Shown here: positions 18,134 through 36,414 of the stretch, in pieces
Position numbering within the stretch: position 1 is the stretch's first letter
Layout: the number at the start of each line of letters is the position of its first letter
NCBI GenBank assembly: GCA_032622095.1
Contig: CP136063.1
Location: forward strand, 30,382,987 to 30,446,986
Reading direction: 5' to 3'
From: Siphonodentalium dalli
Lineage: Eukaryota; Mollusca; Scaphopoda; Gadilida; Siphonodentaliidae
DNA length: 64,000 bases
Notes under the pieces: model-generated
Told to the model about the DNA's origin: nothing
What the model saw: only the letters and a program-made list of their open reading frames with translations
Database searches by the model: none
Translations under genes and position numbers: made by a program

Positions 18134-18136
18134 CAG

Positions 18137-18149
18137 CCTCTTTTCTCTT
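18137..18149 (-). other. polypurine tract of the 5.5-kb element
   Basis: On the minus strand the sequence reads AAGAGAAAAGAGG, a few bases upstream of the 3' LTR, as expected for plus-strand priming. Confidence 0.75.
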
Positions 18150-18183
18150 ATAAAGGAACTTTAAAACAAATTAATTACACAAA

Positions 18184-19251
18184 TTAAACATCTTCCTCGC
18201 TGAGGACATAGTCTGACAAATATCTCGGTGGATGTTTCTCGCGAGTTGATCTTCTGGGACTACTAGTACTCTCTGTGTCTTCACACATAGAAATTTCACT
18301 TGGTATTGTTTGTGGAACTGGTGGTGGACATACTGATACAGCACTGTCTGATTCATGACACAAGTTTTCACCATCTTCATCTGGAATGCAAGTCAGAGTA
18401 TGTTTAGGAGTGTTATTGTTAAGATTGATGTCGGTGGGAACTTTGTAACACTCGCTACGTTTTAAGCGATAGGAAGAGTTCCGAAGTTGAGATCCAACAA
18501 ATTTCTTCAAGTTACACCATGAACCGTCTATGCTTGTTACTAAATACCGGTCACGGGGTTTGTGCTTGTCTCTATCTGAATATATATAAACAAGGTCACC
18601 AATCTTCATATTTGTATCAACAGGAAGTTTCCCAGATGGTGATTTTGAAATCTCACTAGCAGGATGATTCAACGATCTTTGAGCACTCTGTTGAGAAATT
18701 AAGTCACAGTCTTTAATGGGTAACTGTTCACCGGTATACTGATCACGTTGGGTCCACATTTCATTTGCCGAAAGTCCGCGTGTCCGAATTCGTGAATTCA
18801 ACTGAGAAATTGCCACTGCAAGATTAACAGAAGTGAGAATGTCAGACCGGTTATATTGACGGGCAAGCTCATTTTCTACTTCTTGTACAGCCCTTTCAGC
18901 AAAAGGATTTTTGTTACAGTTCTTTGTCCTTCCGAGCTCGATAGCTACGAGATGGCTTTTTAAGAGACTGTCCTTGCATATAGCTTGAAAGCCAGGTGCT
19001 GGATCAGTACGCACAATAGTTAATGGACCTCCAGAGGGTTTTAATTTCAGACACAACTGTAACAAGGCATTGCGCAAAGTTTCTCCACGCTCATTGTCAA
19101 TAATAATTGCATCTGTGTATGAAGTAACACATTCTCGAATTACGAAAATGAATTGTTTATTTCTTCTGAAGACGTCAGCAGCGAATGTAGAACCAATAAT
19201 ATCAGGTGGGGGCTCCTCTGAACTTTGTTTCTGTAAAGTTTTTGGTACGGA
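18184..19251 (-). pseudogene. integrase catalytic core and C-terminus of the 5.5-kb element (frame-shifted)
   Basis: This frame carries the DDE core: an Asp in FAADV, an Asp in RTDPAPGF, and a Glu in NPFAERAVQEVENEL. A DLVYIYSDRD C-terminal domain and a basic RRSTREKHPPRYL tail follow, with a stop at 18184-18186. It lies in the -1 frame relative to the main gag-pol frame. The switch falls within a few codons of the integrase zinc-binding CHAC motif, at a TC dinucleotide run (19255-19262). A 2-bp length change in that run would account for it. It is therefore better read as a mutation than as programmed frameshifting, which rarely falls inside integrase. Confidence 0.85.
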
Positions 19252-22200
19252 TCGGAGAGAGATGCACATGCGTGGCACTGGGCAGACACAGTTTCGATAA
19301 TATTGTCCATATCCAAAGCAAAGAAGTACCGATGTAATACCATTTTCAGCTGGTGAGCAGAAGGATGGCTTAGCTTGATATGGAGAGCAGTAGCCACACC
19401 GTCTATAAGATTGCGAGGAATAACAATACGTTCTCGGTCATGAGTTAGAGCCTGTTCGTGCTTCACGACAAGAAGACCATCTTTTGCAACTGTGACAGAG
19501 TTCAGATACCGCTTGATGTCTCGAATGTTAGTCACTTTCTTGGAAGGTCGGGTTCCCTGTGTCAAGTGAGAATGAGTACGTCGAAGGTCATAGCATTCAG
19601 ACTGAGCCTGTAACCATGTAGACCTATTCACAAAGGGAAATCTCACATCCCCAGAAAGCACATCCTGTACACTTGTTTGACGAACAACAGAATCGGCGGT
19701 TTGTTGTATGAATAAACATATGCGGCACTCAGGATTGAAACACTCTGGTGCATTTCTGCTAGCGAAATCGGACATCAAATTCACACTACCAGGTAAATGG
19801 CGAACTGATACCTGGTATCTACTGACGACTGACAGAAATGTCGACACACGCGGGCTTGCAGAAAATTCACCTCTACACAACTTCTCAAAAGCCTGTACGC
19901 ATGGCTTGCTATCGGTGAGTAAACATGTTGGATCACAAGACTGAATGATGAATGCACTGAAATGCTTTATGGCTGCCGCGATACTTAATGCTTCAATTTC
20001 ACAAGGCAGCCATCGAATTTGTTGACTTCGCACTTTAGCACTGAAGAAGCCAGCCAACATCAACTTTTTGTTGCGAAGCACATATAACGTAGCACCAATA
20101 CCATTTTGCTTCACTGAACCATCGGTCACGATCCATAAAGAGTCATCTGCTCTTGGAAGCACAATTGACTGACAAGTAGACAAATGCTTTTGTGCTACTT
20201 TGAATGAAGAACACTGGTCGTCTGACCACTTTATACACTCCTGAGAAGCTCGACCGGCAATCATCGCATCAAGTGGAGCAAGAATACGAGAACACTGAGG
20301 AATCACACGCGATAGGACTTTATATGCTCCTATGAATGACTTCAAACCTTTCACTGTGGATGGAGGCACACATGTAGTAAGCGTAGTGACACGATGTGGG
20401 CTAGCACTGAGTGAACCATTTGACCATATCCAACCGAGAATCGATGCACGTTGAGGCACAATTACTGTCTTAGCGGCAGACAGTCGCAAATCTGACTTGC
20501 TGAATGCTTGAAGAACACGGCTCCAATTCAAAAGTAGTTCCTCCAGAGAATTTCCACCACAATAGAGATCATCAGCAAGCTTAACCACCACGCCTTCCAT
20601 GAGTAGGTCACCGAGTACACGTGAAAGAAGCTCTTCAAGCGCTGTTTCGGATCCTGGCATCCCCATGGCTGACCGCATATACACTCGCACTCCGCGATAT
20701 GGTGTTACTACTCCACAGTACTTTGTAGACTCTCGAGATAGCGGAATTTGATAAAACGAGCTTGTAAGGTCTGATACAGCAATATATTTCCATTGGCCGA
20801 TAATGCGTAGTGTTGAATCAACATCAGGCATCATGGATGGCGGAGGTTTGCTGTAGCGGCCGACATCAGCGAATGCTGTCACCAGTCTGTAATTACCATT
20901 CGGCTTTTTCACCAGGAAAGATGGATTAAGGTATTCAGCTACGACACCTGCATCTTCTGGACGTTGAAAAACACCACGCTCTTCAAGCTCATCAAACTTT
21001 TGTTGAAGTTCAACGAGTTTGTCTCGCGAGTATTGCGGCACATGACCTTTTCTTTGAGGAGGCTGAACAGGGCCCATGTTGACGACTGCTTGAAATGGAC
21101 CACAGGAACCGTTATAACCAGGATAGGCAGGGTCAAATACATGATCATAATCAGAAAGTACATCCAGGAACTTCTGTTTGATCTGCGGCGAAAGAATGTT
21201 GTCAGGATCCAATTGTACGGCATCAGAATGGTTTTTGTTGGTAGAAATGACATTATTACCGGTAGATGTAGGTACTGAAGTGCCGATAGGTGAAGGTGTC
21301 ATTATATTTAAGACCTGGCATATGTGTGAGCTTTTGTGGATAGTCTTTGCTTCAGGTGTGTTGTTTACAATTCTGATAGTTCCACCTACACTGCATATCA
21401 CATCTGGTGGAGGCCAGATTTCATCAGGTTCTGGGCACTTCTGCAGGTCGGGGCGAGGTTCAACAGCGACTGTGGAATCGGCATCTATGTCATCAGGCAA
21501 TTGTAATTCAACAAACTCTCCTGGCCAAACTGTTGTTGTTGTTGGGGGACCACGCACCACGTAGGCTTCGGCACGTCGAACACGATGTGGACCCGACATA
21601 CGAGGAGGTGATCCATAGACAAATATAGTCCCATCTCCAATAATAACTTCATTTCTGGCTGGTCTAACCATTATGTCATTAACGTTCATAAACGGAACAC
21701 CGGCAAGAATGTCCACATCCAATTGGTCTACAACCAATGCTTCAAGACTGAAGGTATGGTTATCTCGAGTCAACTGTAGACGAGTTTCTCCAGTAACAGT
21801 TAGTGGGCTGCTACCGTCTGCCTGAATTGCTGATTGGCAAGATTTCGTCACTTTGAGACCTAACTGGTGAGCAACTGAAGATTTCAGCATATTAGTTTCA
21901 GCCCCCGAGTCGATGATGATGGAAACTGGGTGATGCTTGTAGTAGGCAGCCAGGAAAGGTGATTTTCGCACTTGCACTCGTCTGGTTGGAATAGTAGGAG
22001 TATTCTTGACAGTTTCACAACTGTTGTCCAATCCAGTGTTCTGTATTTGCTGACAAATTTCTTCATCATTAAAGTTATCATCAGTGATCAGGACGGACCG
22101 AGCTCTGGTCATGAACTTTTTGTCGCGTGCAGGTAGGTGAGGACACATACTCAGGAAGTGACTGAAATCAGGTCGACCAGCCTGTTGACAAAGCGGGCAG

Positions 22201-22760
22201 CATTTTTGTCTGTTACCCGATGCTGCTTGTGGGAAGACTTTTGGAGAAGCTTTCCGGTCATAGTTAGTGGTAAATGCACGCATAACTTTTGTTTCTTCTG
22301 CAGAAATGACTTCATCTATGAGAGAATCCAACGCCATCGAAATTTCGGGTTTTATTGTAGCAAGCGAGCGAGAGCGTAATTCTGTACCATAACGTTGTTT
22401 TATCAACTTAGGTAAGTCCTTGTGTAACAGTTGCAGCCATATCAGAACAATGAGGTTGTCAAGTGTCGGCGAGAGCTCTTCATCTTCATCGGGTTGAGCA
22501 CCATGGTGTGATATGCCACCATCCCGTTTCATTAGACTGTCGTCGATGAAAGCCGATAATCGTTGGAACAAGTCTTCTGGGCGTTCATCGGGGAGATGCT
22601 TGATGTTTGCGAAGTCGATGAAGTGACTGCCTGTTGACTGAAAGCCAAAATGTTGACGGATTGCCTGCCAGACGCTTTCAAGCGATGTCGAGTTTTTCAA
22701 AATGGTGTTGCGTGAAATTATTGGGCAGAAGTTGGCGATTTGACCCAGCAGCAATTCCAA
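19140..22760 (-). pseudogene. gag-pol of the 5.5-kb element: Gag C-part, protease, RT, RNase H, integrase N-part
   Basis: This is the long open stretch following the in-frame TAA at 22761-22763. Residue numbers count from 22760. A capsid-like region (residues 1-160) is followed by a CPLC...HFLSMC zinc knuckle (188-206), retropepsin DSGA (284-287), and an RT whose catalytic box reads LADD (728-731) instead of the usual YxDD of Gypsy RTs. RNase H follows with TDGS and LLTDSKP motifs (879-952), then the integrase HHCC region (H1127 to C1165). After that the frame runs into nonsense and stops at 19140-19142. Length and order fit a single-ORF gag-pol of this kind. Confidence 0.9.
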
Positions 22761-23000
22761 TTATGTGACCTTTTGTGCAGCTGTTCGACGAGTGGCTGCT
22801 GCTATGGCATCACCATCATTAGTAAACCCACGAGAAGGATCGGCACGTGTCTTCTTACCCCATTTCACACCATCAACCAAAAAGGTTGCAAAATTTGCAT
22901 CTAATGACAATGTATAGTGGATGTTAGCTTTCCAACTTTCGAAGGAAGTCACGCTTTCGTCTTTTGTTAGGCACCATTGTTTCGGCGCACGACATGCCAT
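22761..23000 (-). pseudogene. N-terminal Gag segment of the 5.5-kb element, ending at an in-frame stop
   Basis: The first ATG in frame is at 22998-23000 (MACRAPKQW...). About 80 residues lead to a TAA at 22761-22763. The same frame is open directly beyond the stop and continues as Gag, so the TAA is a nonsense change inside Gag, not a gag/pol boundary. Readthrough is possible but unusual so early in Gag. Confidence 0.8.
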
Positions 23001-23119
23001 TGTCCTTGATCGATTTTGCACGACACCGTTTAGTCGGGAACCACTTCGAACGTGAAAACGATTAACTCTTCAAGATTAAATAAAACCACGTGTAGCCGGC
23101 GTAAATTCCGCGTGTGAGT

Positions 23120-23137
23120 CCGTTGAAGCTGCCACCA
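23120..23137 (-). other. primer binding site of the 5.5-kb element
   Basis: On the minus strand TGGTGGCAGCTTCAACGG begins directly after the 5' LTR. TGG pairs with a tRNA CCA end. Which tRNA matches GGCAGC needs a tRNA library. Confidence 0.7.
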
Positions 23138-23392
23138 CGCCACGATAAAGGATATTGTTGGTAATATATAATTAGAGAAGCTGGTTCAATCGAAACGTTT
23201 TATATAAGACAATGACAAGATAATAAACCAAAGCACATGCGAACGCAGTAGGTGTTCGATTGAGAAACCGAGTTAACACAGTAGGTGTTCGATTGGGAAT
23301 CCAAGGAAACACAGTAGGTGTTCGATCGGGAATCTCTATACCGGACGTACCGTAACTACGCCGAACAAGTAATGCGAACCAATGTTATGGCG
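23138..23392 (-). repeat. 5' LTR of the 5.5-kb element (255 bp)
   Basis: Looks identical by eye to the 3' LTR at 17879-18133. It should contain the element's promoter. No TATA box is certain. Confidence 0.9.
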
Positions 23393-24290
23393 CGGCCTTT
23401 GATTTATTTCTAGGAGTTGAAAAGCCCGGGGGGATTCCCCAGTCTAAAAATAGATGTATCCGTCCGCACAGTTAACAAGTTACCATCCTTATGGCAGTGG
23501 TATCTTAGCGTAGCGATGAGAGATAACTCTGCCTGGAGTTTGCGTCTGTTGGTCTCAAGACGAGAGGTCCGGTTCATTTTCCGGCACGAAATTATCGCCG
23601 TCTCTGATTCCGGTTACTTAGATTGAATTGATCAGAAACCTAATTTCACTAACATCTTGTCTCTATTTGGTGAAATACCCATCAGTTGAACGACATATAT
23701 TCTTTATTGCCTCTTTTTGGGGAGAGAATGTTGTGACTTTAAACCGCCCGGTAACACACTTACTCACATGTAGACTGTGTATTCATCTATCGTTTCGTGG
23801 ATGGTACTTCTAATCACAACCACATATTTAGACGCACGTTTATTGCGCACAAGACGGTATTTCCTTCGTTCGATTGATACGAGATCCTTCCTTATTTTCT
23901 TCTTCTTTTAACTATCCACCCATTTAGGGCGAAACATTCTGGTATGTACATACCAGGGTATGTACAGTATCTAGATTAATAAAACAACAATTGATTACAT
24001 GTCACGGAGATGTGCAGGTCTGACTAGTCTGTGCAAAATTTTACTTGTGAACAGTTCACGAATATCTTTAGCCAAGAGACGGAGATCGGTATCTTGAACG
24101 GTCTCGCTGCCACGGGCGAGGAGAAATCATTGAACATCGATGGACCAAGAATGAACTGCAGCTTATCTATAAATATAGCCACTACCGGTACATGTACACG
24201 AGATAAACAGCGGATATATATGACTACACGGTATATCTGACGTCACGAGATAAACAGCGGATATATAGGACTATCTGACTATTCTACACA
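23393..24290 (+). promoter_or_regulatory. 5' flank of zinc-finger unit B
   Basis: Bases 23555-23885 match 60565-60920 upstream of copy C (for example CGTTTCGTGGATGGT), and 24186-24290 match 9715-9823 upstream of copy A. The segment directly before the ATG holds a tandemly doubled CACGAGATAAACAGCGGATA motif. This conserved flank probably contains the promoter and 5' UTR. The 5.5-kb retrotransposon inserted just upstream. Confidence 0.5.
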
Positions 24291-24572
24291 ATGGGAGATG
24301 CTAACCTGAATAACCATGAGACCACCAACACAGAGAATAAACGACATCATTGTGACGTATGCGGGAAACTGTTCGCCACTCCAGGCAGCTTGGTGAGACA
24401 TAAGATAATCCACACCGGCGATTATAAGCCTCACCATTGTGATTTATGTGGAAAATCATTTAATACATCGAGCAGCTTGGTGACACACAAGAGAATCCAC
24501 ACCGGCGATAAGCCTTACCATTGTGATATATGCGGGAAATCGTTTAATACGTCGAGCAACTTGGTGACACAT
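24291..24572 (+). pseudogene. C2H2 zinc-finger gene, copy B, 5' part (split by LTR element)
   Basis: ATG at 24291 opens MGDANLNNHETTNTENKRHH, then finger 1 (CDVCGKLF...HKIIH), finger 2 (CDLCGKSF...HKRIH) and most of finger 3 ([17 protein letters not shown]). The coding frame is cut by the 11.8-kb retrotransposon at the CACAT target site (24568-24572). It resumes in the same frame at 36415 with the missing QRIH of finger 3. Read through the LTR instead, the protein ends after about ten foreign residues. Before insertion this was an open frame with about eleven tandem fingers and TGDKPY linkers. Confidence 0.9.
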
Positions 24573-24835
24573 ATTGTAAAAATTGGCTGTATATAATAAC
24601 CAGTTACAATATAATATATAATAATGAACATACTTACTATTAATACATCTTGACACAAACGAGGATTACAAAGGATATAAACTGTAGAATATACGTCTGG
24701 ATGGTTCGGTTTCTTTTTTGTTCTGATTTCTCCGGTTGCTGGTCCACTCGATTTCGACTCCGGATCCTCAGTATAATTTCCGGTCTAATAAGACTTTCTG
24801 CACCATATTTCCGGTTTAATCCCAATTTCACAACA
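24573..24835 (-). repeat. 3' LTR of the 11.8-kb element (263 bp)
   Basis: On the minus strand it starts TGTTGTGAAATTGGG and ends TTTTTACAAT. It appears identical to 36147-36409. The outer edge is set by the CACAT target duplication. Confidence 0.92.
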
Positions 24836-24850
24836 CTATTCCCTTTTCTT
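24836..24850 (-). other. polypurine tract of the 11.8-kb element
   Basis: The minus strand reads AAGAAAAGGGAATAG directly against the TGTTGTG start of the LTR. Two pyrimidines interrupt an otherwise purine run. Confidence 0.7.
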
Positions 24851-25350
24851 AATAAAAGCTGTTTCCCCCCGTGACGAAATGAATCCCAATTTCTGAATGA
24901 TGACTCCAAAGTTTCTTATTGATAAATGGCGAATCCAAAGTTGTTGAAGAATGATGAATCCAAAGTGTTTTACACAGAACTTTACACAATCACAGAAGTT
25001 CACAACACAATAACATAAAAAATAACACTGCACCTACTGGCGTACAGCGTCGGAATGAAACAGTATGTCATGATCATACAAAATGTCAGTCAAGGCAGTT
25101 TACAAATCCCTGGTGGTATATAATCAGTCCTGTAAGGTTTACCGGACTGACTCCAAGGATGTGTATAATCAGCTTTACTGACTTGGTCTCCAGTTGGCGG
25201 TATTGTTAATCAAAATGAGCACTCTCTAAATTTTGGAAAGTAGTAGTAATGAGCAGAAATTTGAGCATGAGAGTGTCTCCTATGAGCCGAAAACCCAAAA
25301 AATAATTTGGAACACCTGATCAACTGACATAAGTAGGGTGAATATGGAGT
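24851..25350 (-). other. 3' untranslated region of the 11.8-kb element
   Basis: About 500 bp between the ORF3 stop and the polypurine tract with no long frame on the element strand. A run of imperfect GAATCCAAA/TTTGGATTC words lies at 24880-24965. Confidence 0.5.
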
Positions 25351-28251
25351 TTAACGGTTGATCGGCTGGATGCCATACAGTCTTTGGGCATTTTCCTGTG
25401 TCCGAGCTAACACATCCTCCGGGGATGTTCCCAGGATCCGTGCTAAGGAGACAGCAACCTCCCCAATGACTGCAGGGGTGGTAAAAGGACGTCCCTGCGA
25501 ACCGAAATGGGGTGCGTCAGACTCTAAAAGTAACCTGCCTGGCTTGATGCTTCGAATAGCATCTTTCTGGACTTCATTAAAGCCGGCACAGGCTGTGGTG
25601 ACCCCGAAATAAGTGTTAGGTCTGAGATACGACCACCGGTCAACCATTTCTCTACATCCCGTGAAACAGTGGAAATGAATCGCTTGATGTTCGCGGGTTT
25701 CGGTTCTGACTTTATCCAGGGCGTTGTAGCTGACATCCTGACCCATATGCTGGCCAGGCCCCCCTCTTAAATGCATAATTAGGGGTTTGCCCCACAAACG
25801 CACCATCTCCAAAATTTGCCGGAAGAGATTATCCTGAATCAGTTGATCGCTATCCGGTAAAATAATGGAACGATCAAGACCAATTTCGCCGATAGCCACG
25901 ACAGCCGGGTGTGCTATTAAAGCCTTGAATTTATTCATTGTGGCTGGAACCAGTAACTGCTTGATTTTTTTCGGATGACACCCGACAGCAACCTTCCACT
26001 GAGAATCACAGGATAAGGTGTTGATATCTGGGTAATTATCGGGGTCGCAATAAATCTGGACGCCACCGATGACAGTGACGGGAAAGGACACCGAAATGTT
26101 AGTTGCCTGAATGGCTTCCAGTGCTGTGAATCTAGCATTCAGTTTGTGACTTTGACACATTCGATCAAGATGAAAATGAGAATCGATTCCCGTTAACTTC
26201 CGTTTTGGAATGCCAGACTGGCGAGCTAGTGCTTTTGTCATGGAGGTTAACACAGCTTTATAAGTCGGCTTTGGAAGGGTAACGGGAGTCGATTTGATGG
26301 ATGATGATGATCTAGCAGTTTTCACGCTGCTGGTAGGCTTAGTCGGCTTTGACACAGGAACGGGAGCCGACTTGGTGGATGATGATGATCTAGCAGTTTT
26401 CACGCTGCTGGTAGGCTTAGTCGGCTTTGAAACAGTAATGGGAGCCGACTTTGATGATGATGATCTAGCAGTTTTCACGCTGCTGGTAGGCTTAGTCGGC
26501 TTTGAAACAGTAATGGGAGCCGACTTTGATGATGATGATGATCTAACAGTTTTCACGCTGCTGGTAGCCTTAGTCGGCCCTGTGGTTGAGGGTTCGACTG
26601 GTAAGGTGTTGGTGCCTGTCTGAGATAAACAAGCTTTCTTTGCATCGGCTGTAACAGAAACCGGATGGGTACGTTTCCGCTCGATAGGCAGGGGATTATT
26701 CGCCCTGTACTGTTGTCTGGCTTCATACGTGTATTGTTGCCGGGCGTCGCAGATTTGCCTATACCGTTCCTTCCTCCTCTGCTTCCGGGTCAGACCGCTC
26801 AAAAGGTTGGTCGGAACCGGAGTAGATTTGGGCGGTTGTACAGGTGAGGTTGATATAATTGGTTTCACCGTTGCGGCCGAATTGACCTCGTGTTCGACTG
26901 TATAAAAATCATGGATTATGCAGGCCGCTGCTATAGCCGTGGGAGCTCGCTCGGGTTTGAAAAGGCCAGAGGCTGAAATGGTGGCCCGAGCTTCATTTAA
27001 CTCATCGACTGGGATTCGATTTTTGACAATGCGATCCCTCAGAATATCCATCAACCAAAAGTGGGAATTCGACTTTTGGAATTTCTGTATTTCACTGTCG
27101 GGCAGTTTATTTAGAATGGCTGCCAAGACCCGCCAATGGGTCAAACATGCGTTCGAATTGATCCGCGGTGCTATGCTGAACCCACTTGCTGGAGGGGTCA
27201 CTCCCATATCAGAGCCAAATGTTCGGATATGGTTGAGTGCCATTACTCCCAAGAAACAGGGCGTAGGAATTGCCTTTAAGTCCCAGTGTTCGTTAAGTAA
27301 ATATCTTAGCTTGGTGAGACGAGATTGCTCATCCAGCTCCCGAACATCTGGGCACAAAACTGCAGCGAAATGACTTAAGTCGTCCCTAACCTGTTGACGA
27401 AATATTTTGGGCACAGCCCCATAAATGTTGTCAAATTGCCACCAGCATGGTTTAACATGCTGCGTGTAAAAGTGATGCCGTTGCTGGCCCATAATAGGAC
27501 GGTCACAGTCCTTAAACACACAATGGTCGGGAAGTTGTGTGTCTCGACCGCCGGTACTAACTTCCTTTGACCCTGAAAAGGAAGAGCTTTGTGAGGCTAT
27601 GGTTACAGTTGGAATTTTAGCTTTTGGTGGGCCCACTTGGTCACTTCCAGTGTCGTCCAATATAGCATGAGATATATATCTCACGCACTGTTCGTCCACT
27701 ATGCAAGCTGGTGGATGGAAGGCTTCCTCAATCAACTTGCATAGAGGGTTAACGTTGGCAACCGCTTGAGTCTGTATTGGCTCGCTAACGGCTGGTGTTT
27801 GCTGTGATAAGTTTTCATCAGAGTCCACCTGCATAGACTCGACCGCTTGAGTTTGAATGGACTCAGTCACGGGAACCTCAGGCAGACTCGTCAGGAAACT
27901 TGGATAGAACAGGTCTATTATAGATTTGCCTTCCGTGGGGGATACGTTAATTTCCTCCTTTGCCGAGGCCGAATTAGCCTCACTCACTTCGACACCAATC
28001 AAGTTATCGATAGACTTTAAAATGTCTGATACTGGCAAAGGGGATAACATAGGTTTGGAAGAATTATCCAATTGAATATTAGGCAAATTCATACCTGCTG
28101 CATCCATAATTTCAACCCGCTCCCCACTGGACGAATTGTCCTCTGGCGGCTGGCTGTGCTCCTCATCAGAATCGATGTGCAGAGCCTCTGTGTCGACAGC
28201 AGTATTGTGCTCCTCATCAGAATCGATGTGCAGAGCCTCTGCGTCGCTCAT
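25351..28251 (-). CDS. ORF3: 966-residue protein with C-terminal TatD-family nuclease domain
   Basis: ATG at 28249-28251, TAA at 25351-25353. The N-terminus doubles a 17-residue EALHIDSDEEH unit. Residues 244-265 hold a C-x4-C...HH-x4-H zinc-finger-like cluster followed by an unfamiliar region to about 450. Residues 490-526 are strongly basic (RKQRRKERYR). Residues 562-660 are four 26-residue repeats rich in SSS and KPTKP. Residues 689-966 are a TatD hydrolase: HFH (H692, H694), GEIGLD (E789), IMHLRG (H827), HFHCFTG (H861) and LESDAPH (D912). All metal ligands of the family are present. TatD proteins are divalent-metal 3'-5' nucleases in DNA repair and apoptosis. Here it would act with the retroelement; its role is unknown. 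It shares pol's reading frame but is separated by a stop and 98 bp, so separate expression is needed. Confidence 0.9.
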   Translation of the reverse strand: MSDAEALHIDSDEEHNTAVDTEALHIDSDEEHSQPPEDNSSSGERVEIMDAAGMNLPNIQLDNSSKPMLSPLPVSDILKSIDNLIGVEVSEANSASAKEEINVSPTEGKSIIDLFYPSFLTSLPEVPVTESIQTQAVESMQVDSDENLSQQTPAVSEPIQTQAVANVNPLCKLIEEAFHPPACIVDEQCVRYISHAILDDTGSDQVGPPKAKIPTVTIASQSSSFSGSKEVSTGGRDTQLPDHCVFKDCDRPIMGQQRHHFYTQHVKPCWWQFDNIYGAVPKIFRQQVRDDLSHFAAVLCPDVRELDEQSRLTKLRYLLNEHWDLKAIPTPCFLGVMALNHIRTFGSDMGVTPPASGFSIAPRINSNACLTHWRVLAAILNKLPDSEIQKFQKSNSHFWLMDILRDRIVKNRIPVDELNEARATISASGLFKPERAPTAIAAACIIHDFYTVEHEVNSAATVKPIISTSPVQPPKSTPVPTNLLSGLTRKQRRKERYRQICDARQQYTYEARQQYRANNPLPIERKRTHPVSVTADAKKACLSQTGTNTLPVEPSTTGPTKATSSVKTVRSSSSSKSAPITVSKPTKPTSSVKTARSSSSKSAPITVSKPTKPTSSVKTARSSSSTKSAPVPVSKPTKPTSSVKTARSSSSIKSTPVTLPKPTYKAVLTSMTKALARQSGIPKRKLTGIDSHFHLDRMCQSHKLNARFTALEAIQATNISVSFPVTVIGGVQIYCDPDNYPDINTLSCDSQWKVAVGCHPKKIKQLLVPATMNKFKALIAHPAVVAIGEIGLDRSIILPDSDQLIQDNLFRQILEMVRLWGKPLIMHLRGGPGQHMGQDVSYNALDKVRTETREHQAIHFHCFTGCREMVDRWSYLRPNTYFGVTTACAGFNEVQKDAIRSIKPGRLLLESDAPHFGSQGRPFTTPAVIGEVAVSLARILGTSPEDVLARTQENAQRLYGIQPINR
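26287..26570 (-). repeat. 75-78-bp coding tandem repeat in ORF3, four units
   Basis: The word CTAGCAGTTTTCACGCTGCT recurs at 26312, 26390 and 26465, with CTAACAG at 26543. It encodes a Ser/Lys/Pro-rich 25-26-residue linker repeat before the TatD domain. Antisense frames here are artefacts. Confidence 0.9.
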
Positions 28252-28275
28252 TCTATAATCTTACTCGTACTCATG

Positions 28276-28297
28276 CTGAAAATAGAAAGAGGCCTTA
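28276..28297 (-). promoter_or_regulatory. candidate splice acceptor upstream of ORF3
   Basis: The minus strand reads CCTCTTTCTATTTTCAG, a pyrimidine tract ending in CAG, 24 bases upstream of the ORF3 ATG. Retroviruses and env-bearing Gypsy elements make env from a spliced subgenomic RNA, so this could do the same for ORF3. A short out-of-frame ATG lies between the acceptor and the ORF3 ATG. A GTAAGT donor candidate lies in the 5' LTR at 36206-36211. Confidence 0.5.
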
Positions 28298-28350
28298 CAG
28301 ACTGATTTATGGCTGAGCATGAGAGTTCGAGTAGAAGCTTATAAAACATA

Positions 28351-31300
28351 TTAACATCTCGGGCATCGATAGGTGTCTAATTGATCAGCTTCTTCCTGTG
28401 TAATATTAACACATTCACCATGGTACCAATCATTGCAATAATCACACTGGAGCATCAATTTTCCACCCCATTTTTTCTGACATACGCAAAAAAGGCCAGT
28501 GGATCTCTCAAGTGTGACTTCTCCCGTCTCATGGAAGCGTTTTAAACATTTAGTTAGCCATGGCGGAATGGTTCGATCGTGACACTTTTTCAGTCGATCG
28601 TGATTTACCACATTGGTGGCACTTTTAAAAAATATTTTAAAAAGGTATGGCGTGTATACTTTAGCAATTATGCCTGGACCTTTCCAAAAAGAAGAAAGTT
28701 TTCGGGCTTTGCCTTTCTTTGTTGCGGTGTCCAACAAGTATACTAAATCACCAAGCTTATATTCAAATTTGTTAATTTTAACATCATAATCTCGCTTCAT
28801 TTTTTTACAAGCAGCCTTCAAGTGCTCACGCGCGAGTTCATGACAATCTTTATACTCTTTCACCAGCGTTTGCACATATTCGGCCGCGTTTTCATATTCT
28901 GGTATTTTTGAATTAAAATTAAAAACGAGATCTGACGGGTGATTTACCTCACGTCCCAGCATCATTCTATTTGGTGTAAAACCCGTAAGACGGTGTACCG
29001 ATGATCGCATGGCCCCGGCGAGCTGTGAAAGATACCTATCCCAGGAATTCTGGTTCTTATCAATATAACACCGGACGGCATTCATCAATGTCCGATTCTG
29101 GCGTTCTGCGGCCCCATTCGAGGAAGGTCGATATGGCGTGGTACGTGCCTTATGGATCTGAAGCGCTTCACACATAGCTGTGAACAGCTTTGATTCAAAA
29201 CACGACCCTTGATCAGAGAAAATTTGGAATGGGCATCCAAATCTCGAAAAGAACTCTTTAACAGCTGTGTATGCTGCTGTTTCGGCAGTCTGATCGGGTA
29301 ATGCTATAAATTCGACCCATTTGGTGAACTGACAGGTCATAACCAAAATATATTTATTTCCCTTCTGGCTGAGTGGCAACGGTCCCAAAAAATCAATATG
29401 TACACGTTCCATTGGGGCCCCAGCGTGGAAAGAAACCTGCTCCCATTTAGCATGTCGAACCGGTTTCTTGCCTTGATTACACTGGGGGCAGGCCGCCACG
29501 AATGTTTCAATATCTTCGCTAACCCCATACCAATAGTAATTTTGCCGTATCCGTTCTCGGGTACGGGTTACGCCCTGATGCCCTGATGCCGGAATATCAT
29601 GGGCGAGGGTCAGAATTTCAGTGGCAAACTTTCGTGGAATAACCAAGACTTGTTGGGAATCCCGCTTGATTTTGTACAACAATTTATTTTTTATGAGGAA
29701 ACGTTGCCGGTTTATCCAAATATACTTAGTAGCTTGGCTACTAATAAAAAGTTCACCTTCCCTGGGGTCTTTTCCAGTTTCTAACCACCCAATCACAGGG
29801 GCTAAGTCAGGGTCATAACGCTGAAATTCAGCGAGTTCGTCCAGAGTACATACATCCGCTAGGAGGGCATTATCCTTGGGGGTAGTGGTCTGTCGCACCC
29901 TGACTTCAGGTTTTAATCCCGATGATATTTCTAGGTCAACCTGGGAATGGGTCCAACCCGTGTTCGAACAGACGGAGTCTGTTGGTTCGTAGGGATCTTC
30001 CCACTCATCTCCCGGCTCCCACGAAAAACCTAGGGGAGGGTTTGGCTGACTATCTGTCTGGCGAATTGCCGGACTGGCGCTCTCAGATAGTTCGGCAAAC
30101 GTAATGGAACCTTTGGTTAGGGGAACCACATCGTCCACAGCATTTTCGAATCTGGTCCAGCTATTAAACACCCGAGTGCAATATTTACACCCACCACAAG
30201 GGAGATCAGAGAGTTTACACCCTGTGAAATACTCTTCACATGAGCCGTCCGCAGGAATTCTGGACAGCGCATCGGCATTTACGTGCAATGTTCCCTTGCG
30301 ATGCTCAATAACCATATTATACTCACCGAGTTCCTCTAACCACCTTGCAAGTTGTCCCTGCGGTTCCTTAAAGTTCATGAGCCACCTTAGGCTACTATGA
30401 TCAGTCCTTACCAAGAATTTCCGACCTAGCAGGTAGTGGCGAAATTGACGTATGAATCGTACTACTGCAAGAAGTTCTCGCCGTGTAGTACAATAACGCC
30501 GTTGTTGTGGGGACAGCACAAAACTACCAAAGGCGATAGCTTTCTCATTACCATCTTGGACTTGAATTAATTCCCCACCGATGGCAAAATTACTACTATC
30601 ACAGTCCAGAATAAAAAGGTCAGTTGAATTTGGTAGGCTCAGCACAGGTGGCGAGGTCAGCGCATCCTTGAGCCTATCAAATGCAACCTGCTGTTCTGGG
30701 TTCCATTTAAATTTATGTTTACCGGTGATGTCATATAGAGGTCGTGCTAACTCTGCATAATTTTTTATGAATAACCGATGATAATTAACTAGCCCACAAA
30801 AACTTTCTACCTCTCTAGTATTCTGGGGTACAGGCCAGCTTTGGACAACCTCTATAGATGATTCCATCATTTTCACACCTTGCTCACTCACAATTCTGCC
30901 CAGAAATTCAATACTTTTCTGAAAAAACTCACATTTACTGGGCTTGAGTTTAAGATTATATTTTCGGAACCGAGAGAGTACTTTTTCGATGTTTTCCAAA
31001 TGATTTTGAATCGAATTGCCCATCAGAACAACGTCGTCCAAGTACCCTAAACAGATATCCCAGTTCAGACCGTGCAATACCAAATTGATAACCCTACACC
31101 AAGTAAACGGGCTTCCAGTTAGGCCGAACGGCATTTTAATGAAATTGAAAATCCCGTATTTGGTCAGAAAGGCTGTTTTAGCACGGTCTTCGTCACGTAC
31201 GGTAACCTGATGATACGCAGCCAAACAGTCTGCCTTTCCGAACCACGAATTTCCACTAAGTGTGTCAAGACACTCATCAATTCGAGGCAAGGGGTAGACG

Positions 31301-32550
31301 TCTTTGCGGGTCACCGAGTTTATGACGCGATAGTCTATGCACCAGCGAATAGAGCCGTCCCGCTTTTTAACAAGGACAGGGGCTGATGCCCATTCCGACA
31401 CAGAGGGCTCGATGACCTTGGCCATCAAAAGCTTTTTCAAATGAGTTTCCTCTTGGTCGGCAAAGCATGCTGGGGTGCGCCTCATAGGCTGCTTAATTGG
31501 ACGAGCTCCCTCTAAAAGAGGAATACTATGCTCGATTTGGGAGAATGTACCCAAATCAAACTCGTCTTTTGCAAACACGTCTTGAAATTCCAGAAGTAGT
31601 TTTTCAAGGCGGGCTATGTCAGGCCCTGACAATAATTTCGAAGAGCGCTCAAATAGACTCTGTAAATATCCTGGAAGGGTGGAATTACCCACCAGGCGAT
31701 CTCCAGCGCTATTATTTGGGGAGCTCCCCGGAGATAAATAGTCCGGAGCAGATTCCGGCTTGGGCGCGCATGACTTGACGGAGTGTTCAATCACCTCATC
31801 AACTTCATAAGCTTCACCCACACATTGTAATTTATCTAAGATTATCTCTGAATGTTGAGAATTTATAAAACATACTTTTGGGGGGCTATACCCCGAGTGC
31901 AAAGTAGGCAAAATATACTCACCAAGTTGTTCATTGGGTTCAATAGTAAAATCAGCTAATGGTGGAATCGTTTCACACTGCAGTAACACAACTGACTGAG
32001 GGGGTATAACTGTTCGCTGATTGACTATAATTCTAGAAATTTTAGCCACTTTTGGTTTTACCTTGGGAATTGTAGGAATCCGACTCTTTCCCAAAAAGAT
32101 AGAACCTTTATTTGCCCCAATTTTTGCATCGTATTTAGTGAGAAAATCCATCCCAAGAAGCATGGGATCTTCAATGGGTGCTACATATATATTTTCACTA
32201 CACTCGAGTTCCCCAATGGTAATGTCTATGGGTCCCACCAACATACCTTCCATGTGACCATCACGAGCCGCCGTATTAAAGTGTAGAGATTTAATTAAGG
32301 GTGGCTCAGGGCTGAGTTGGTGAAACAATTTGTCAGAGATAATCGTAACATCGGCGGCTGTGTCTACTACTGCTTGGGTAACATGACCAGCTATTTTGAC
32401 CGGAACCTTGATGGCGGAGGCTGATTTAATTTGTTTAATAGTTAATTCCGGTTTGATTTCACCAGACGTTACATTTTTACCAGTTACGAGGTCATGAATT
32501 ATAATTGGGATCGGGCTCAGACCTCGGAAGTTGCCCCGTTCCCGTTTAAA
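28351..32550 (-). CDS. pol: Pol of the 11.8-kb element: protease, RT, RNase H, integrase, PHD finger
   Basis: Made as a Gag-Pol fusion by -1 frameshifting at 32544-32550; the frame has no suitable ATG near its start. Order: retropepsin DTAA active site (Asp at 32362-32364); RT with YLDD (31034-31045); RNase H (DCDSSN, RRELLAV, RTDHSSL); a Cys-rich CKLSDLPCGGCKYC insert; integrase HHCC (about 29600-29480); and a DDE core with 35 residues between the second Asp and Glu (VHIDF, FSDQGS, NGAAERQN). A GPG/F-like module (FWKGPGII) follows. The last 45 residues form a C4HC3 PHD finger ending on the final Cys. PHD fingers read histone H3 tails, so this may steer integration as chromodomains do in chromoviruses. 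No breaks are seen. Confidence 0.93.
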   Translation of the reverse strand, partial: FKRERGNFRGLSPIPIIIHDLVTGKNVTSGEIKPELTIKQIKSASAIKVPVKIAGHVTQAVVDTAADVTIISDKLFHQLSPEPPLIKSLHFNTAARDGHMEGMLVGPIDITIGELECSENIYVAPIEDPMLLGMDFLTKYDAKIGANKGSIFLGKSRIPTIPKVKPKVAKISRIIVNQRTVIPPQSVVLLQCETIPPLADFTIEPNEQLGEYILPTLHSGYSPPKVCFINSQHSEIILDKLQCVGEAYEVDEVIEHSVKSCAPKPESAPDYLSPGSSPNNSAGDRLVGNSTLPGYLQSLFERSSKLLSGPDIARLEKLLLEFQDVFAKDEFDLGTFSQIEHSIPLLEGARPIKQPMRRTPACFADQEETHLKKLLMAKVIEPSVSEWASAPVLVKKRDGSIRWCIDYRVINSVTRKDVYPLPRIDECLDTLSGNSWFGKADCLAAYHQVTVRDEDRAKTAFLTKYGIFNFIKMPFGLTGSPFTWCRVINLVLHGLNWDICLGYLDDVVLMGNSIQNHLENIEKVLSRFRKYNLKLKPSKCEFFQKSIEFLGRIVSEQGVKMMESSIEVVQSWPVPQNTREVESFCGLVNYHRLFIKNYAELARPLYDITGKHKFKWNPEQQVAFDRLKDALTSPPVLSLPNSTDLFILDCDSSNFAIGGELIQVQDGNEKAIAFGSFVLSPQQRRYCTTRRELLAVVRFIRQFRHYLLGRKFLVRTDHSSLRWLMNFKEPQGQLARWLEELGEYNMVIEHRKGTLHVNADALSRIPADGSCEEYFTGCKLSDLPCGGCKYCTRVFNSWTRFENAVDDVVPLTKGSITFAELSESASPAIRQTDSQPNPPLGFSWEPGDEWEDPYEPTDSVCSNTGWTHSQVDLEISSGLKPEVRVRQTTTPKDNALLADVCTLDELAEFQRYDPDLAPVIGWLETGKDPREGELFISSQATKYIWINRQRFLIKNKLLYKIKRDSQQVLVIPRKFATEILTLAHDIPASGHQGVTRTRERIRQNYYWYGVSEDIETFVAACPQCNQGKKPVRHAKWEQVSFHAGAPMERVHIDFLGPLPLSQKGNKYILVMTCQFTKWVEFIALPDQTAETAAYTAVKEFFSRFGCPFQIFSDQGSCFESKLFTAMCEALQIHKARTTPYRPSSNGAAERQNRTLMNAVRCYIDKNQNSWDRYLSQLAGAMRSSVHRLTGFTPNRMMLGREVNHPSDLVFNFNSKIPEYENAAEYVQTLVKEYKDCHELAREHLKAACKKMKRDYDVKINKFEYKLGDLVYLLDTATKKGKARKLSSFWKGPGIIAKVYTPYLFKIFFKSATNVVNHDRLKKCHDRTIPPWLTKCLKRFHETGEVTLERSTGLFCVCQKKWGGKLMLQCDYCNDWYHGECVNITQEEADQLDTYRCPRC
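28354..28488 (-). other. PHD finger at the Pol C-terminus
   Basis: The spacing is C-x-C-x11-C-x2-C-x4-H-x2-C-x15-C-x2-C, with the conserved W (WYHGEC) two residues before the His. This matches the PHD family. It sits where some Gypsy lineages carry a chromodomain, directly after the integrase C-terminal module. Confidence 0.9.
32507..32550 (-). promoter_or_regulatory. -1 programmed ribosomal frameshift site, gag to pol
   Basis: The minus strand carries the canonical slippery heptamer TTTAAAC (32544-32550), phased as T TTA AAC in the Gag frame. Gag ends at 32517-32519 and pol is open in exactly the -1 frame from 32556. The next bases can pair: CGGGGC (32533-32538), five bases after the heptamer, with GCCCG (32512-32516), extendable by GGG with CCC. 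Heptamer, frame and spacing all agree. Confidence 0.88.
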
Positions 32551-35363
32551 TCCTCCTTAAATTTAACTTTATTATCCCGGTTAGGGCGATTTTCAGGATT
32601 CCGTGAAGGGCAGTCTCTTTGAAAATGCCCCACCCCCTGACAGGCATAGCAAATGACCTTGGCCTTGGGAGAGGGTGACCTTGACCTACTTTTGAAATCT
32701 GACTCTTTTTTATCAAAGTGAGAAATTGTGCCAGACTGTGGCTTATTGGTCGCCATCTTTTCTAAAACAGTTGTTAATTTCTCCACTGTCTTTTGGAGAG
32801 TTTCCATATTAGTTTCCAAGGCGAGCATACGTGCCTTGGAATTTGAATTATCGCTCGAAGTTTTCCAACTTGGAGCGCGGGGCGAAAATCTACGAGGGCC
32901 TGGTGAATCACCGGTCTCCGAATCGGAACCCTCGCGCTTGCCTCGGAAGTTGTATCCTCGCTGCTTTGGTCTACCACGACCAGTCTGTCTTACAGACCTA
33001 ACAGGAGAGGTTTCATCATCAGTATCCGATGAAACATGGCGCACGTCTTTGCGAGACACTTTGCTGCCATGAATAGCAGCATAATTGTGTTGATGCCATC
33101 GGATTCTGTTGATGGCTTGTTCCATGGACTGAGGTGTTTCCATGGTAACAAGTTCGGCCGCCCTGGTGTCAGAACAGCCTTGACAGAAGCGCAAGACCGC
33201 TTGCTTGAAGGTAAAATTGGCCGGACATTCTTTAAAGGCACGTGTGGCCAATGAGAGAACGGTCTCGGCCCATTCTTCCAGCGACTGACCAGTGACTTGC
33301 TTTGCTTGTTGGAATCGAATTTGGGTCGTTTCGGGCAAGTCTTTAAATCCGAAACGATTTTCCAACCCGTCAAGCAACTGAACAACTGTCAGATAGGGAT
33401 CACGCTCGGTAAGCAGCGTAAAATACTCGCTCGCTTTTCCTTTTAAACACCAGCAGAGAGCCTGCTGCTGCTCATCCCATCCCCAACGTTGCGACTGGGC
33501 ATACAAAGTGAATTTCACCCTGAAGGCTTGCCACGAGTCGATACCATCATACGAAAACCCTTTTGGCATATGAGGCAGTCGATAATCGCCCTGCCTTCCG
33601 TGAGGAGCGACTTGTTGATTGTATGGTTGATAACCTCCCGGCCCTGGACCAATTTGATTCATCCCGGGGTTTCCCATCCCCTGATTTCCCGGATTCTGTA
33701 TCCATTGATTTCCCGGGGGTGGTTGGTTATACCCAGGGTTCTGCATCCCTTGATTTCCCGGGGGCGGTTGGTGGTAACCAAGGTTATGCATCCCTTGATT
33801 CCCCGGGGGCGGTTGGTTGTAACCAAGGTTCTGCATCCCTTGATTCCCCGGGGGCGGTTGGTTGTAACCAAGGTTCTGCATCCCTTGATTTCCCGGGGGC
33901 GGTTGATTGTAACCCGTTCCCGATACATTGGGTCCCGGCTGAACCTGGGCATGAGAGCCTGGGTTTCTATAACCCGACATATCTTGATTAAACTGACCGA
34001 AGCCAGCTTGAGTGGTACCAGACCCTGGACCCCATGGGTTTAAGGGCCCGGTTGGCGTTGGATCGGTTGGCGGATTTAACTGTGCAAAACTAGTTTGACC
34101 CATGCCAGATTGAGTAGTTCCATAGCCTTGATGCCCGGTTGTTGCATATCCAGAATTTGGATTTAAATTGTAGTGTTGGCTACTCTGTGGTTGTGATCCG
34201 GCATAACCACGATTAGGTTGGTTGTAACCTGGCTGAGCGGGTTGACTCCATTGATATGATTTTCCATATGAGGAGGTGTATGTGCTGGCTATGGTCTGAC
34301 CATATGTACCAGACGTGGTGGCCTGGGTATAGACAGGACTATTTTGCATAGGCGGCACTCGCCCGTCACCTGCATATGCACCCTGCTGAGCGGCCGCATA
34401 GCTGCTCATTGGCGTAGACGTAGCAGGGGGTACAAAGCGTGACGATACCACTGTCGAATTGGCAGTTACGGTAGCTGCTGACGCTTGGCCGTGATGAACA
34501 AATGATGCAGCGGGGGCTACCACTGTTGAATAGGCAGGCATTGTAGTCGACGCTTGGCCACAGAATGAATAGGCCGATGAAAATGATGCAGCCTGTGGTG
34601 CCCCAACTGTAGAACTAGCAGTTACAGCTGCCGGCTGTTGGCCAAAAAGACCATAGGATGGTATAGCAGGTAGTGTCGGGCGAAACCCTGGAAACGGTTC
34701 GCCCGCACTTCGTGCTGGGTTGGAAACCATGGGGCTAAACCAAGCAACGGGTTGTGAAACGGTAACAGCAGCAGCTGCTTGTGTCCCATCGGCTTGGGCG
34801 CCATGTGTGATGTCACCCTGAATCTGGGATTCAGACCAGCGACGTCTTGTGAATTCTGGATCGGTCCTCGGATTTGCGATGGGAGAATAACCTTTCGCAA
34901 ATAAGGCCGCCATTTCCTGACTACTTGGGGGAGAAGGTGGGTGTGTTAGCTTACGCCTCACACTCTCCGGCATCTGCTCACCCCCGGCATCATGGAGAAC
35001 CATTTTCTCGGGGGTTGTTAAACCAGATGGCGGCTTCTTCTCTGTCTGGGGAGGGGTCAAGGGTGACTGGCTTCTTGCGTAATCCTCCCTTCCCTCACCA
35101 TCAGACTCAGACTGATAGTTGTTGGGGTCCGCATGAGCCCTCGGTACCCAGTTATCAGCTTGGGACTTTGAAGTTGGGTGACTAAAGTCAATCACACTCA
35201 ACTGATCCCTTGAACTTCTGAACCGGGGTACGAGACTAAGATCCCTTTGTGATATTAGAGTTACCTGCCGGCGTAACTGAATTATATCGGCGGCAATTTG
35301 GGGACCCACATGAGGAATTTGTTGCAACTCTTTCCAATTAGCTGTATTTATGAAAATCTTCAT
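32517..35363 (-). CDS. gag: Gag of the 11.8-kb element, with N-terminal HhH-like motif and CCHC knuckle
   Basis: ATG at 35361-35363, TGA at 32517-32519, 948 residues, long for a Gypsy Gag. Residues 5-31 (INTANWKELQQIPHVGPQIA...) match the helix-hairpin-helix pattern of ComEA-like proteins, which bind DNA backbone. Residues 35-600 are low-complexity, rich in Pro, Gly, Gln and Ser, with five to six 15-residue NQPPPGNQGMQNLGY repeats (33660-33915). Residues about 600-768 look like the retrotransposon Gag capsid region (SWQAFRVKFTLYAQ...). An SR-rich segment and a CCHC knuckle (C905, C908, H913, C918) follow, then the frameshift site. It should form the particle and package RNA. The HhH motif is an unusual addition. 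Confidence 0.9.
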   Translation of the reverse strand: MKIFINTANWKELQQIPHVGPQIAADIIQLRRQVTLISQRDLSLVPRFRSSRDQLSVIDFSHPTSKSQADNWVPRAHADPNNYQSESDGEGREDYARSQSPLTPPQTEKKPPSGLTTPEKMVLHDAGGEQMPESVRRKLTHPPSPPSSQEMAALFAKGYSPIANPRTDPEFTRRRWSESQIQGDITHGAQADGTQAAAAVTVSQPVAWFSPMVSNPARSAGEPFPGFRPTLPAIPSYGLFGQQPAAVTASSTVGAPQAASFSSAYSFCGQASTTMPAYSTVVAPAASFVHHGQASAATVTANSTVVSSRFVPPATSTPMSSYAAAQQGAYAGDGRVPPMQNSPVYTQATTSGTYGQTIASTYTSSYGKSYQWSQPAQPGYNQPNRGYAGSQPQSSQHYNLNPNSGYATTGHQGYGTTQSGMGQTSFAQLNPPTDPTPTGPLNPWGPGSGTTQAGFGQFNQDMSGYRNPGSHAQVQPGPNVSGTGYNQPPPGNQGMQNLGYNQPPPGNQGMQNLGYNQPPPGNQGMHNLGYHQPPPGNQGMQNPGYNQPPPGNQWIQNPGNQGMGNPGMNQIGPGPGGYQPYNQQVAPHGRQGDYRLPHMPKGFSYDGIDSWQAFRVKFTLYAQSQRWGWDEQQQALCWCLKGKASEYFTLLTERDPYLTVVQLLDGLENRFGFKDLPETTQIRFQQAKQVTGQSLEEWAETVLSLATRAFKECPANFTFKQAVLRFCQGCSDTRAAELVTMETPQSMEQAINRIRWHQHNYAAIHGSKVSRKDVRHVSSDTDDETSPVRSVRQTGRGRPKQRGYNFRGKREGSDSETGDSPGPRRFSPRAPSWKTSSDNSNSKARMLALETNMETLQKTVEKLTTVLEKMATNKPQSGTISHFDKKESDFKSRSRSPSPKAKVICYACQGVGHFQRDCPSRNPENRPNRDNKVKFKEDLNGNGATSEV
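33660..33915 (-). repeat. 45-bp coding tandem repeat in Gag
   Basis: A unit with TTGATTTCCCGGGGGCGGTT (plus-strand reading) repeats every 45 bp, five to six times, encoding the NQPPPGNQGMQNLGY array. Open frames on the plus strand here are mirror images. Confidence 0.92.
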
Positions 35364-36146
35364 GTTGACCAACAAATCACTAAATATTAACCACTATGAA
35401 ACCTTGCACTACCTAGACGCTAAGTAAAATATAATTACAACCAATTTCCCATAGAATCTAGGAAAACTACTCTATATTTTACCACATCTATTTTTATCCA
35501 AAAAGAAAATAGTAACGAACAATAGAGAATATATTGTTCTATTCAACATGCAAAATACGCGAAGAGATGACCATCAAATTACAACAAGAGCGAAATTGTT
35601 TCCATCTTCCGTCTTCTCCGGTCAAATATCAAAAACCTAAATAAATGGATCTTTAATAATTCACGTACAGTGATGTCGATTATGTAATTAAACCGACTGG
35701 AAAATCTGTGCGAATTGGACAATAAATTTCCAGCGATAACATATTTTGAAAGTGGCGAGAAGCAAAAATTGCTGCAAAATCACTTTAATAAATTGATTTA
35801 TGGGGAAGCATGCACAACACAGGAATTCCGGATGTACAAGTGGTGTGATGAAAAATTTAACCCAGAATTGAAGCAGAGATTTCCATGTGGAATTCACCGG
35901 AAAAAATTCAAAGTTATTTCAACACTCTATTCCCACAAAAACAAAAAAACAAAAACCCACCATGCGTAAAAAGCAAGGAGAATCCATTGAAATAAGCATG
36001 GAAGGCTAAATGAGTAAGCAAAGTGAAAAAACAAGCTATAGAAGGCAATAGAATAAACCACGCTGAAATCACGTGGAAATTGGGGTAGAAAAAATACGAG
36101 AAATTATTCCGCAAAAAACATCAAATAATTAACGACTAACGTCAGT
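35364..36146 (-). other. leader between 5' LTR and gag of the 11.8-kb element
   Basis: About 780 bp, AT-rich. A plus-strand frame of 84 codons lacks an ATG and any motif. After the LTR the element strand begins ACTGACGTTAGTCG, without the TGG start of a usual tRNA primer site. The packaging signal should lie here but cannot be recognised. Confidence 0.55.
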
Positions 36147-36409
36147 ATTGTAAAAATTGGCTGTATATAATAACCAGTTACAATATAATATATAATAATG
36201 AACATACTTACTATTAATACATCTTGACACAAACGAGGATTACAAAGGATATAAACTGTAGAATATACGTCTGGATGGTTCGGTTTCTTTTTTGTTCTGA
36301 TTTCTCCGGTTGCTGGTCCACTCGATTTCGACTCCGGATCCTCAGTATAATTTCCGGTCTAATAAGACTTTCTGCACCATATTTCCGGTTTAATCCCAAT
36401 TTCACAACA
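36147..36409 (-). repeat. 5' LTR of the 11.8-kb element (263 bp)
   Basis: Looks identical by eye to 24573-24835. Its outer end at 36409 is followed by CACAT, the second copy of the target duplication, and then by the interrupted zinc-finger frame. Confidence 0.92.
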
Positions 36410-36414
36410 CACAT

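Follow-up and report, generated by a model that had tools for sequence, protein, structure and literature searches.

Long terminal repeat (LTR) retrotransposons are usually thought to need gag and pol only, with env as the main optional extra, and among the Gypsy elements the chromodomain-bearing chromoviruses carry a chromatin-reader domain at the integrase C-terminus. The nearest precedent for a nuclease in the env position comes from Juno and Vesta, LTR retrotransposons of bdelloid rotifers whose third open reading frame (ORF3) encodes a DEDDy exonuclease; the source describes two or more independent gains of it and an evolution that did not differ significantly from neutral (Rodriguez, Kenefick and Arkhipova 2017, PMC5408684). 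We studied a 64,000-nucleotide stretch of the genome of the scaphopod mollusc Siphonodentalium dalli (contig CP136063.1; hereafter the window), which carries a Ty3/Gypsy-type element with an ORF3 of its own. Like that of Juno and Vesta, it is a nuclease-type enzymatic frame in the env position of an LTR element, whereas the rotifer protein, as those passages have it, belongs to the RNase D-like superfamily and the scaphopod one is a TatD metal-dependent hydrolase. We found that the TatD ORF3 is not a one-off capture; in identity and descent it is almost certainly a normal, long-held gene of a Ty3/Gypsy clade. Our favoured reading as a whole, to which we give a probability of about 0.6, is that this old clade gene serves nucleic-acid end processing or repair for the element. 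Among the titles and abstracts listed from the open literature (Repbase and subscription journals lie outside that scope), none describes a retrotransposon with TatD or Tpt1, or the present arrangement in a Gypsy element with a PHD finger, and an earlier description elsewhere is possible.

The TatD frame and the element that carries it

Positions 24572 to 36409 of the window, on the minus strand, are one complete and young Ty3/Gypsy-type LTR retrotransposon, in which ORF3 is placed between pol (stop at 28351) and the 3' LTR, about 100 bases after pol. The Pfam model TatD_DNase (PF01026) is matched along its full length by ORF3 residues 689-960, with E 8.3e-34 and 117.5 bits where the cut-off is 27, and scanning with Pfam and NCBIfam returned only TatD-type models and no envelope glycoprotein. 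In a 45-row alignment of ORF3s and relatives, the metal ligands H692, H694, E789, H827, H861 and D912 were invariant and a C-x4-C-x10-H-x4-H motif was nearly so. The full set H, H, E, H, H, D was likewise kept in 45 of 45 rows from the genome, representing 41 of 41 loci; this count covers domains of at least 250 aa among the better-scoring matches, with four loci fetched twice, six loci of a non-LTR kind included and the partial domains L008, L011, L017, L018 and L030 left out. A chance ORF as the origin of the frame was ruled out by the Pfam match together with the ratio of nonsynonymous to synonymous substitution rates (dN/dS) given below. A preliminary description had claimed a complete 966-codon frame with recognisable TatD motifs, lying after pol inside intact LTRs and followed by a polypurine tract; all of this stood, with the ORF running from 28251 to 25351, the two LTRs agreeing at 265 of 265 bases and a purine-rich stretch directly before the 3' LTR. 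The features of the element are as follows.

24568..24571, no strand: CACA duplicated at the target site, 3' side (flanking bases; length of 4 bp as in 14 other insertions)
24572..24835, minus: 3' LTR, 264 bp (identical to the 5' LTR; bounds from other copies)
24836..24850, minus: purine-rich tract adjoining the 3' LTR, candidate polypurine tract (read in the sequence)
25351..28251, minus: ORF3, 966 aa, ATG start (ORF list; Pfam)
25372..26187, minus: TatD nuclease domain, ORF3 residues 689-960, six metal ligands (Pfam, alignment)
26222..26578, minus: Ser/Lys/Pro-rich linker ahead of the TatD domain, with tandem repeats (unit about 78 nt)
27457..27522, minus: C-x4-C-x10-H-x4-H zinc-finger-like motif, ORF3 residues 244-265 (alignment of relatives)
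28276..28292, minus: polypyrimidine tract ending in CAG and resembling a splice acceptor, 24 nt upstream of the ATG of ORF3
28351..32556, minus: pol open frame with protease, reverse transcriptase (RT), RNase H, integrase and PHD finger
28354..28488, minus: PHD finger at the C-terminus of pol (PF00628, E 4.1e-10)
32517..35375, minus: gag-like ORF1 of 952 aa, with a TTG as its listed start (CCHC zinc knuckle near the C-terminus, seen in translation)
32544..32550, minus: slippery heptamer T TTA AAC, where gag and pol overlap (sequence)
36146..36409, minus: 5' LTR, 264 bp
36410..36413, no strand: target-site duplication CACA, 5' side of the element (flanks)

The order of the pol domains found by Pfam, RT, RNase H, H2C2 and rve, is that of Gypsy elements, and a protease motif, VVDTAAD, was seen by eye in the -1 frame translation of pol. 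The true LTR length of 264 bp (TGTTGTG...CAATA) was set by comparison with 14 other insertions, and the CACA duplication, read by eye in the flanks, is given for the plus strand.

Copies, related families and descent

Nine loci (L051-L059) were picked from the list of TatD matches in the genome, a 2.23-Gb assembly of 9 contigs; TatD was thus preselected, and the question asked was what lies upstream of it. We found a PHD-finger Gypsy pol in 6 of the 9 (L051-L056; the finger identified by Pfam for L051 and by translation and integrase alignment for L052-L056), a Gypsy pol without PHD finger in L057 and another ORF in L058 and L059. ORF3 of L051-L056 is 950-1492 aa long with TatD at its C-terminus, and that of L057 is 513 aa with TatD. 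Starting from pol, we checked 95 matches to the integrase-PHD piece of the window; at least 57 of them are followed by TatD at no more than 7 kb, a minimum figure because it draws on the best 150 of 529 TatD candidates and the 94 scored of 4911 pol candidates. All three loci fetched from the remaining 38 PHD-pol matches (L163-L165) also carry a TatD ORF3, so the shortfall is at least partly explained by the 150 of 529 TatD candidates scored. In L058 (C6:103051600) and L059 (C3:80494700) one exon of some 300 aa, combining a CCCH-like zinc finger with TatD, is found roughly 2.6 kb downstream of an uncharacterised ORF of 912-947 aa, and near-identical TatD loci occur on different chromosomes (L002/L003, 99.65% over 3.7 kb). 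Together with L001-L006, these two loci make up another dispersed, and perhaps mobile, TatD kind.

Within the window family, some 30 places, counting fragments, match the 3' part of ORF3 at 83 to 100% identity, with more distant ones near 70%. ORF3 directly precedes the 3' LTR in all 20 fetched copies, which were chosen through the ORF3 search, and eight of them (L031-L038) have the full 969-codon frame. The preliminary description had named copies lacking ORF3 as evidence against its proposal. When the search began from the LTR instead, an ORF3 match was present at 21 of 23 marked places (best 40 of 70 LTR candidates). One of the other two, C6:4681547-4691370, is without the part corresponding to window 27470-25351; since the first third of ORF3 remains, it is an internal deletion derivative and not an ORF3-less ancestor. 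The other, C7:27590030, has no ORF3 match among the matches listed. A 4-bp target duplication was found in 14 of 14 insertions with both flanks, as well as in the window, and the flanks, compared by eye, are unlike; one insertion has an altered 5' LTR start, and an ATAT duplication occurs three times with differing flanks. 

The TatD domain is under purifying selection. Between the window and L045, the domain has 12 changes at 190 synonymous sites and also 12 at 644 nonsynonymous sites, a ratio of 0.29 (binomial p 0.003 against neutrality); the remainder of ORF3 gave 0.65 (p 0.057), the difference between the two parts being not significant (p 0.14). Pairwise values exclude L050 as well as L040, L043 and L049, which run past frameshifts (0.58-0.70), and the L141-L143 pairs, with few changes, gave 0.6-0.8; very young pairs hold too few changes to be informative. 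A codon model across families gave dN/dS of 0.148, 0.121, 0.091 and 0.108 for the TatD domain in four sets, and 0.268 for the N-terminal part of ORF3. The earlier suggestion that the intact frame reflects selection, to which a dN/dS near 1 was to be the counter-evidence, thus agrees with a TatD value of 0.29 pairwise and 0.09-0.15 across families.

Integrase and TatD trees of seven elements, leaving out L052, agree on two pairs: the window joins L055, a pair starred in either tree, and L051 joins L053, starred in the integrase tree and at 86/96 in the TatD tree. Their remaining branches lack resolution. A quick tree was also built from 62 TatD domains. In it, a starred branch (96) unites those labelled PHD-Gypsy, a label that also covers L012/L144, L016 and L020 (labelled without pol sequence), with 32 of 33 related proteins, the named ones coming from bivalves, a brachiopod and a sea urchin. 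Outside this branch fall octopus TATDN2, the L058/L059 kind (near octopus TATDN2), L057 on a long branch, and bacteria. The agreement of the integrase and TatD pairings and the shared TatD branch make one old TatD acquisition, inherited along with pol, the simplest reading of these sequences. The N-terminal part of L057 matches the profile of the zinc-finger and His-Trp-Arg (HWR) region of the other ORF3s (E 1.2e-10), while octopus TATDN2 P0044 does not (1.9). This match, rather than the placement of its TatD domain, suggests that L057 may have the same history, either predating the PHD finger or passing through an exchange of ORF3.

Protein searches returned 2 matches for residues 235-966 and 51 for the TatD part alone, the low figure arising probably because low-complexity words filled the 8000 candidates. 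IMG/VR gave one weak contig. GTDB holds more than 539 relatives, of which the best 80, all titled bacteria, served as outgroup only. Two ORF3-like TatD proteins, P0021 and P0042, are labelled as coming from metagenome-assembled genomes of symbionts (Sedimenticola, Thiodiazotropha); judged by sequence, they look like host contamination of those assemblies.

Tpt1, expression and possible roles of ORF3

Some ORF3s carry a second enzymatic domain. A complete PF01885 (Tpt1/KptA) was found in ORF3 of L051, L053 and L056 (E 8e-48 to 3e-41) and of L144 (E 6e-32; known here from an ORF3 piece, pol not included), that is, in 4 of 14 scanned ORF3s. The L053 domain aligned with nearly the whole of the solved tRNA 2'-phosphotransferase 1 (PDB 7yw2, E 1.7e-33). 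Genome-wide there are 83 PF01885 matches; TatD lies within 5.5 kb downstream at 37 of them, and 25 of the 39 matches of at least 480 bases have a same-orientation TatD downstream. No public protein with joint Tpt1-TatD was found: among 865 candidates of similar length there were 10 Tpt1 matches, with PF01885 alone, the named ones from oysters.

Close to the ORF3 start codon, at no more than 35 nt from the ATG, the best acceptor-like score exceeds that of the rest of the same loci (combined p 8e-5 over ten families, L057 left out); taken singly, p is below 0.05 in 5 of the 10. This concentration of acceptor-like tracts near the ATG suggests that ORF3 may be made from spliced mRNA, as for env.

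Since the catalytic domain is conserved, a zinc-finger-like motif, an env-like position and an acceptor tract go with it, and Tpt1 recurs, we infer end processing or repair as the most likely role. The N-terminal part of the protein evolves fast, its zinc-finger-like motif is accompanied by a conserved His-Trp-Arg block, some families add Tpt1/KptA, and TatD forms the C-terminus. The protein would be produced from a spliced subgenomic mRNA like retroviral env. Its zinc-finger part would bind nucleic acid, and the TatD metal-dependent phosphodiesterase would clean up or repair ends on RNA, primer or cDNA belonging to the element itself, joined where Tpt1 is present by removal of 2'-phosphates; host-nuclease damage might in this way be undone, or leftover RNA cleared ahead of integration. 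This mechanism is held tentatively, at clearly less than even odds. A more specific form of it, by analogy with phage RNA repair, is that an animal Gypsy clade carries its own end-healing kit in the env position, consisting of TatD and, in a large branch, TatD fused to Tpt1. Tpt1 would strip 2'-phosphates or ADP-ribosylate RNA ends, and the kit would mend genomic RNA or the tRNA primer after host ribonuclease attack. We regard that form as unlikely.

Counter-defence would give ORF3 a different target: the nuclease, together with NAD-using Tpt1, would attack small RNAs of the host, guide RNAs or further immune nucleic acids, rather than intermediates of the element. The window ORF3 does match the model of QatD, a bacterial anti-phage TatD (E 9.7e-15), at 54.3 bits against a cut-off of 230, which reflects no more than common TatD membership. 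The faster N-terminal part (0.27 against 0.15 for the TatD domain) would suit such a conflict, as would the discussion of Tpt1/KptA within RNA repair in virus-host conflict in the available part of one source (PMC9503650), but the TatD domain is strongly conserved and no defence-system partner gene was seen in the window element, so that we find this role doubtful. We are equally doubtful of an RNase H helper clearing RNA from RNA:DNA hybrids or R-loops around reverse transcription or integration; pol already has an RNase H domain and the ORF3 TatD clade stands apart from octopus TATDN2 in the tree, even if human TATDN2 is described, in the available part of the source, as degrading the RNA strand of R-loops (PMC12754012).

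A mainly nucleic-acid-binding or structural ORF3, with the TatD fold serving in binding or regulation, would fit the near-invariance of the zinc-finger-like motif and the fact that over half of the protein is low-complexity or fast-evolving; the six metal ligands kept in 41 of 41 loci would be unexpected if the enzyme were dead, and we consider this improbable. Carriage by chance of a host gene, as a transduced retrocopy in one element family, is scarcely credible: TatD genes occur widely, in 14 of 14 control genomes, and retrocopies are common in general, but 11 sampled loci (window, L051-L057, L163-L165), which represent different families or subfamilies, have TatD directly after a Gypsy pol, a recurrence on which we rejected this origin, and the dN/dS of 0.09-0.15 and the congruent integrase and TatD trees speak against it as well.

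Several observations weigh against the favoured reading of an old clade gene for end processing or repair. TatD enzymes have several substrates, and the fold therefore leaves the role of ORF3 unfixed. No Tpt1 was found by Pfam in 10 of the 14 scanned ORF3s, namely those of the window, L052, L054, L055, L057, L141, L143, L163, L164 and L165 (broken frame), and 14 of the 39 long Tpt1 matches are without a listed TatD downstream. The acceptor tracts are not significant singly in L051, L052, L053, L054 and L163, and L057, whose TatD is not grouped with the other ORF3 TatDs, has no acceptor tract near its ORF3 ATG. Only 9 of 21 copies (the window and L031-L038) keep the full 969-codon frame. Finally, the copy at C6:4681547-4691370 lacks the TatD part while both of its LTRs are 99% identical to those of the window; TatD may therefore be dispensable in cis or supplied in trans.

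Surroundings of the element and comparison with known systems

Pol overlaps the gag-like ORF1 in the -1 frame, with T TTA AAC inside the overlap, which we take to be a classical slippery heptamer of the type best known from coronaviruses; the RNA fold downstream of it is only mildly stable (z -1.48, weak). The sequence directly after the 5' LTR (window 36100-36145) has no TGG start as expected of a tRNA primer binding site. The N-terminus of gag (32517-35375) gave a weak comEA-like (helix-hairpin-helix) match (E 7e-4, far below the cut-off). The element sits in a C2H2 zinc-finger array on the plus strand (24315-24571 and 36414-37134), whose frame, read by eye, runs on across the joined insertion site. 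Elsewhere in the window, a second LTR element on the minus strand (17874-23398, LTRs 99% identical) has its pol in two frames, 19140-22760 and 18184-19278, and no third ORF in the ORF list, and a 379-aa ORF on the plus strand (38-1177) resembles, by eye, an integrase in its C-terminal part, with an acidic tail after it.

A nuclease kept in the env position by divergent families under strong purifying selection, and partly fused to Tpt1, suggests end processing or nuclease defence as a limiting factor for these elements, which seem, from their sequences, to carry their own tool for nucleic-acid trimming or repair. The ORF3s offer purifiable enzymes with clear candidate substrates. Judged from protein sequence, some bivalve, brachiopod and echinoderm gene models of like architecture, annotated as TatD or uncharacterised, may be mobile-element genes.

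Compared with known systems, the window element shares with chromoviruses a chromatin reader after the integrase, which here is a PHD finger, and has ORF3 in addition. Errantivirus-like elements carry env, whereas the window ORF3 has no envelope glycoprotein match in Pfam or NCBIfam. Bacterial TatD/YcfH proteins (TIGR00010; PDB 1yix, 2gzx), the solved ones matching ORF3 by sequence, have the TatD domain and metal ligands in common with it but are free-standing and about 260 aa long; against QatD, the window ORF3 stays below the model cut-off. TATDN1- and TATDN3-named entries match the profile of the 45 ORF3-like rows. The cellular TATDN2-like proteins of octopus (P0044, P0047) resemble ORF3 in having TatD at the C-terminus of a longer protein, yet lie outside the ORF3 branch, P0044 being also without the zinc-finger-HWR match. 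The Tpt1 domain of L053 is like TRPT1/Tpt1 and differs from it by its fusion to TatD in one retrotransposon ORF. With respect to Juno and Vesta, Tpt1 is present in some ORF3s here and goes unmentioned in the available passages on the rotifer elements, whose ORF3 is described there as showing no significant deviation from neutral evolution, in contrast to a dN/dS near 0.1 across families for the ORF3 TatD domain.

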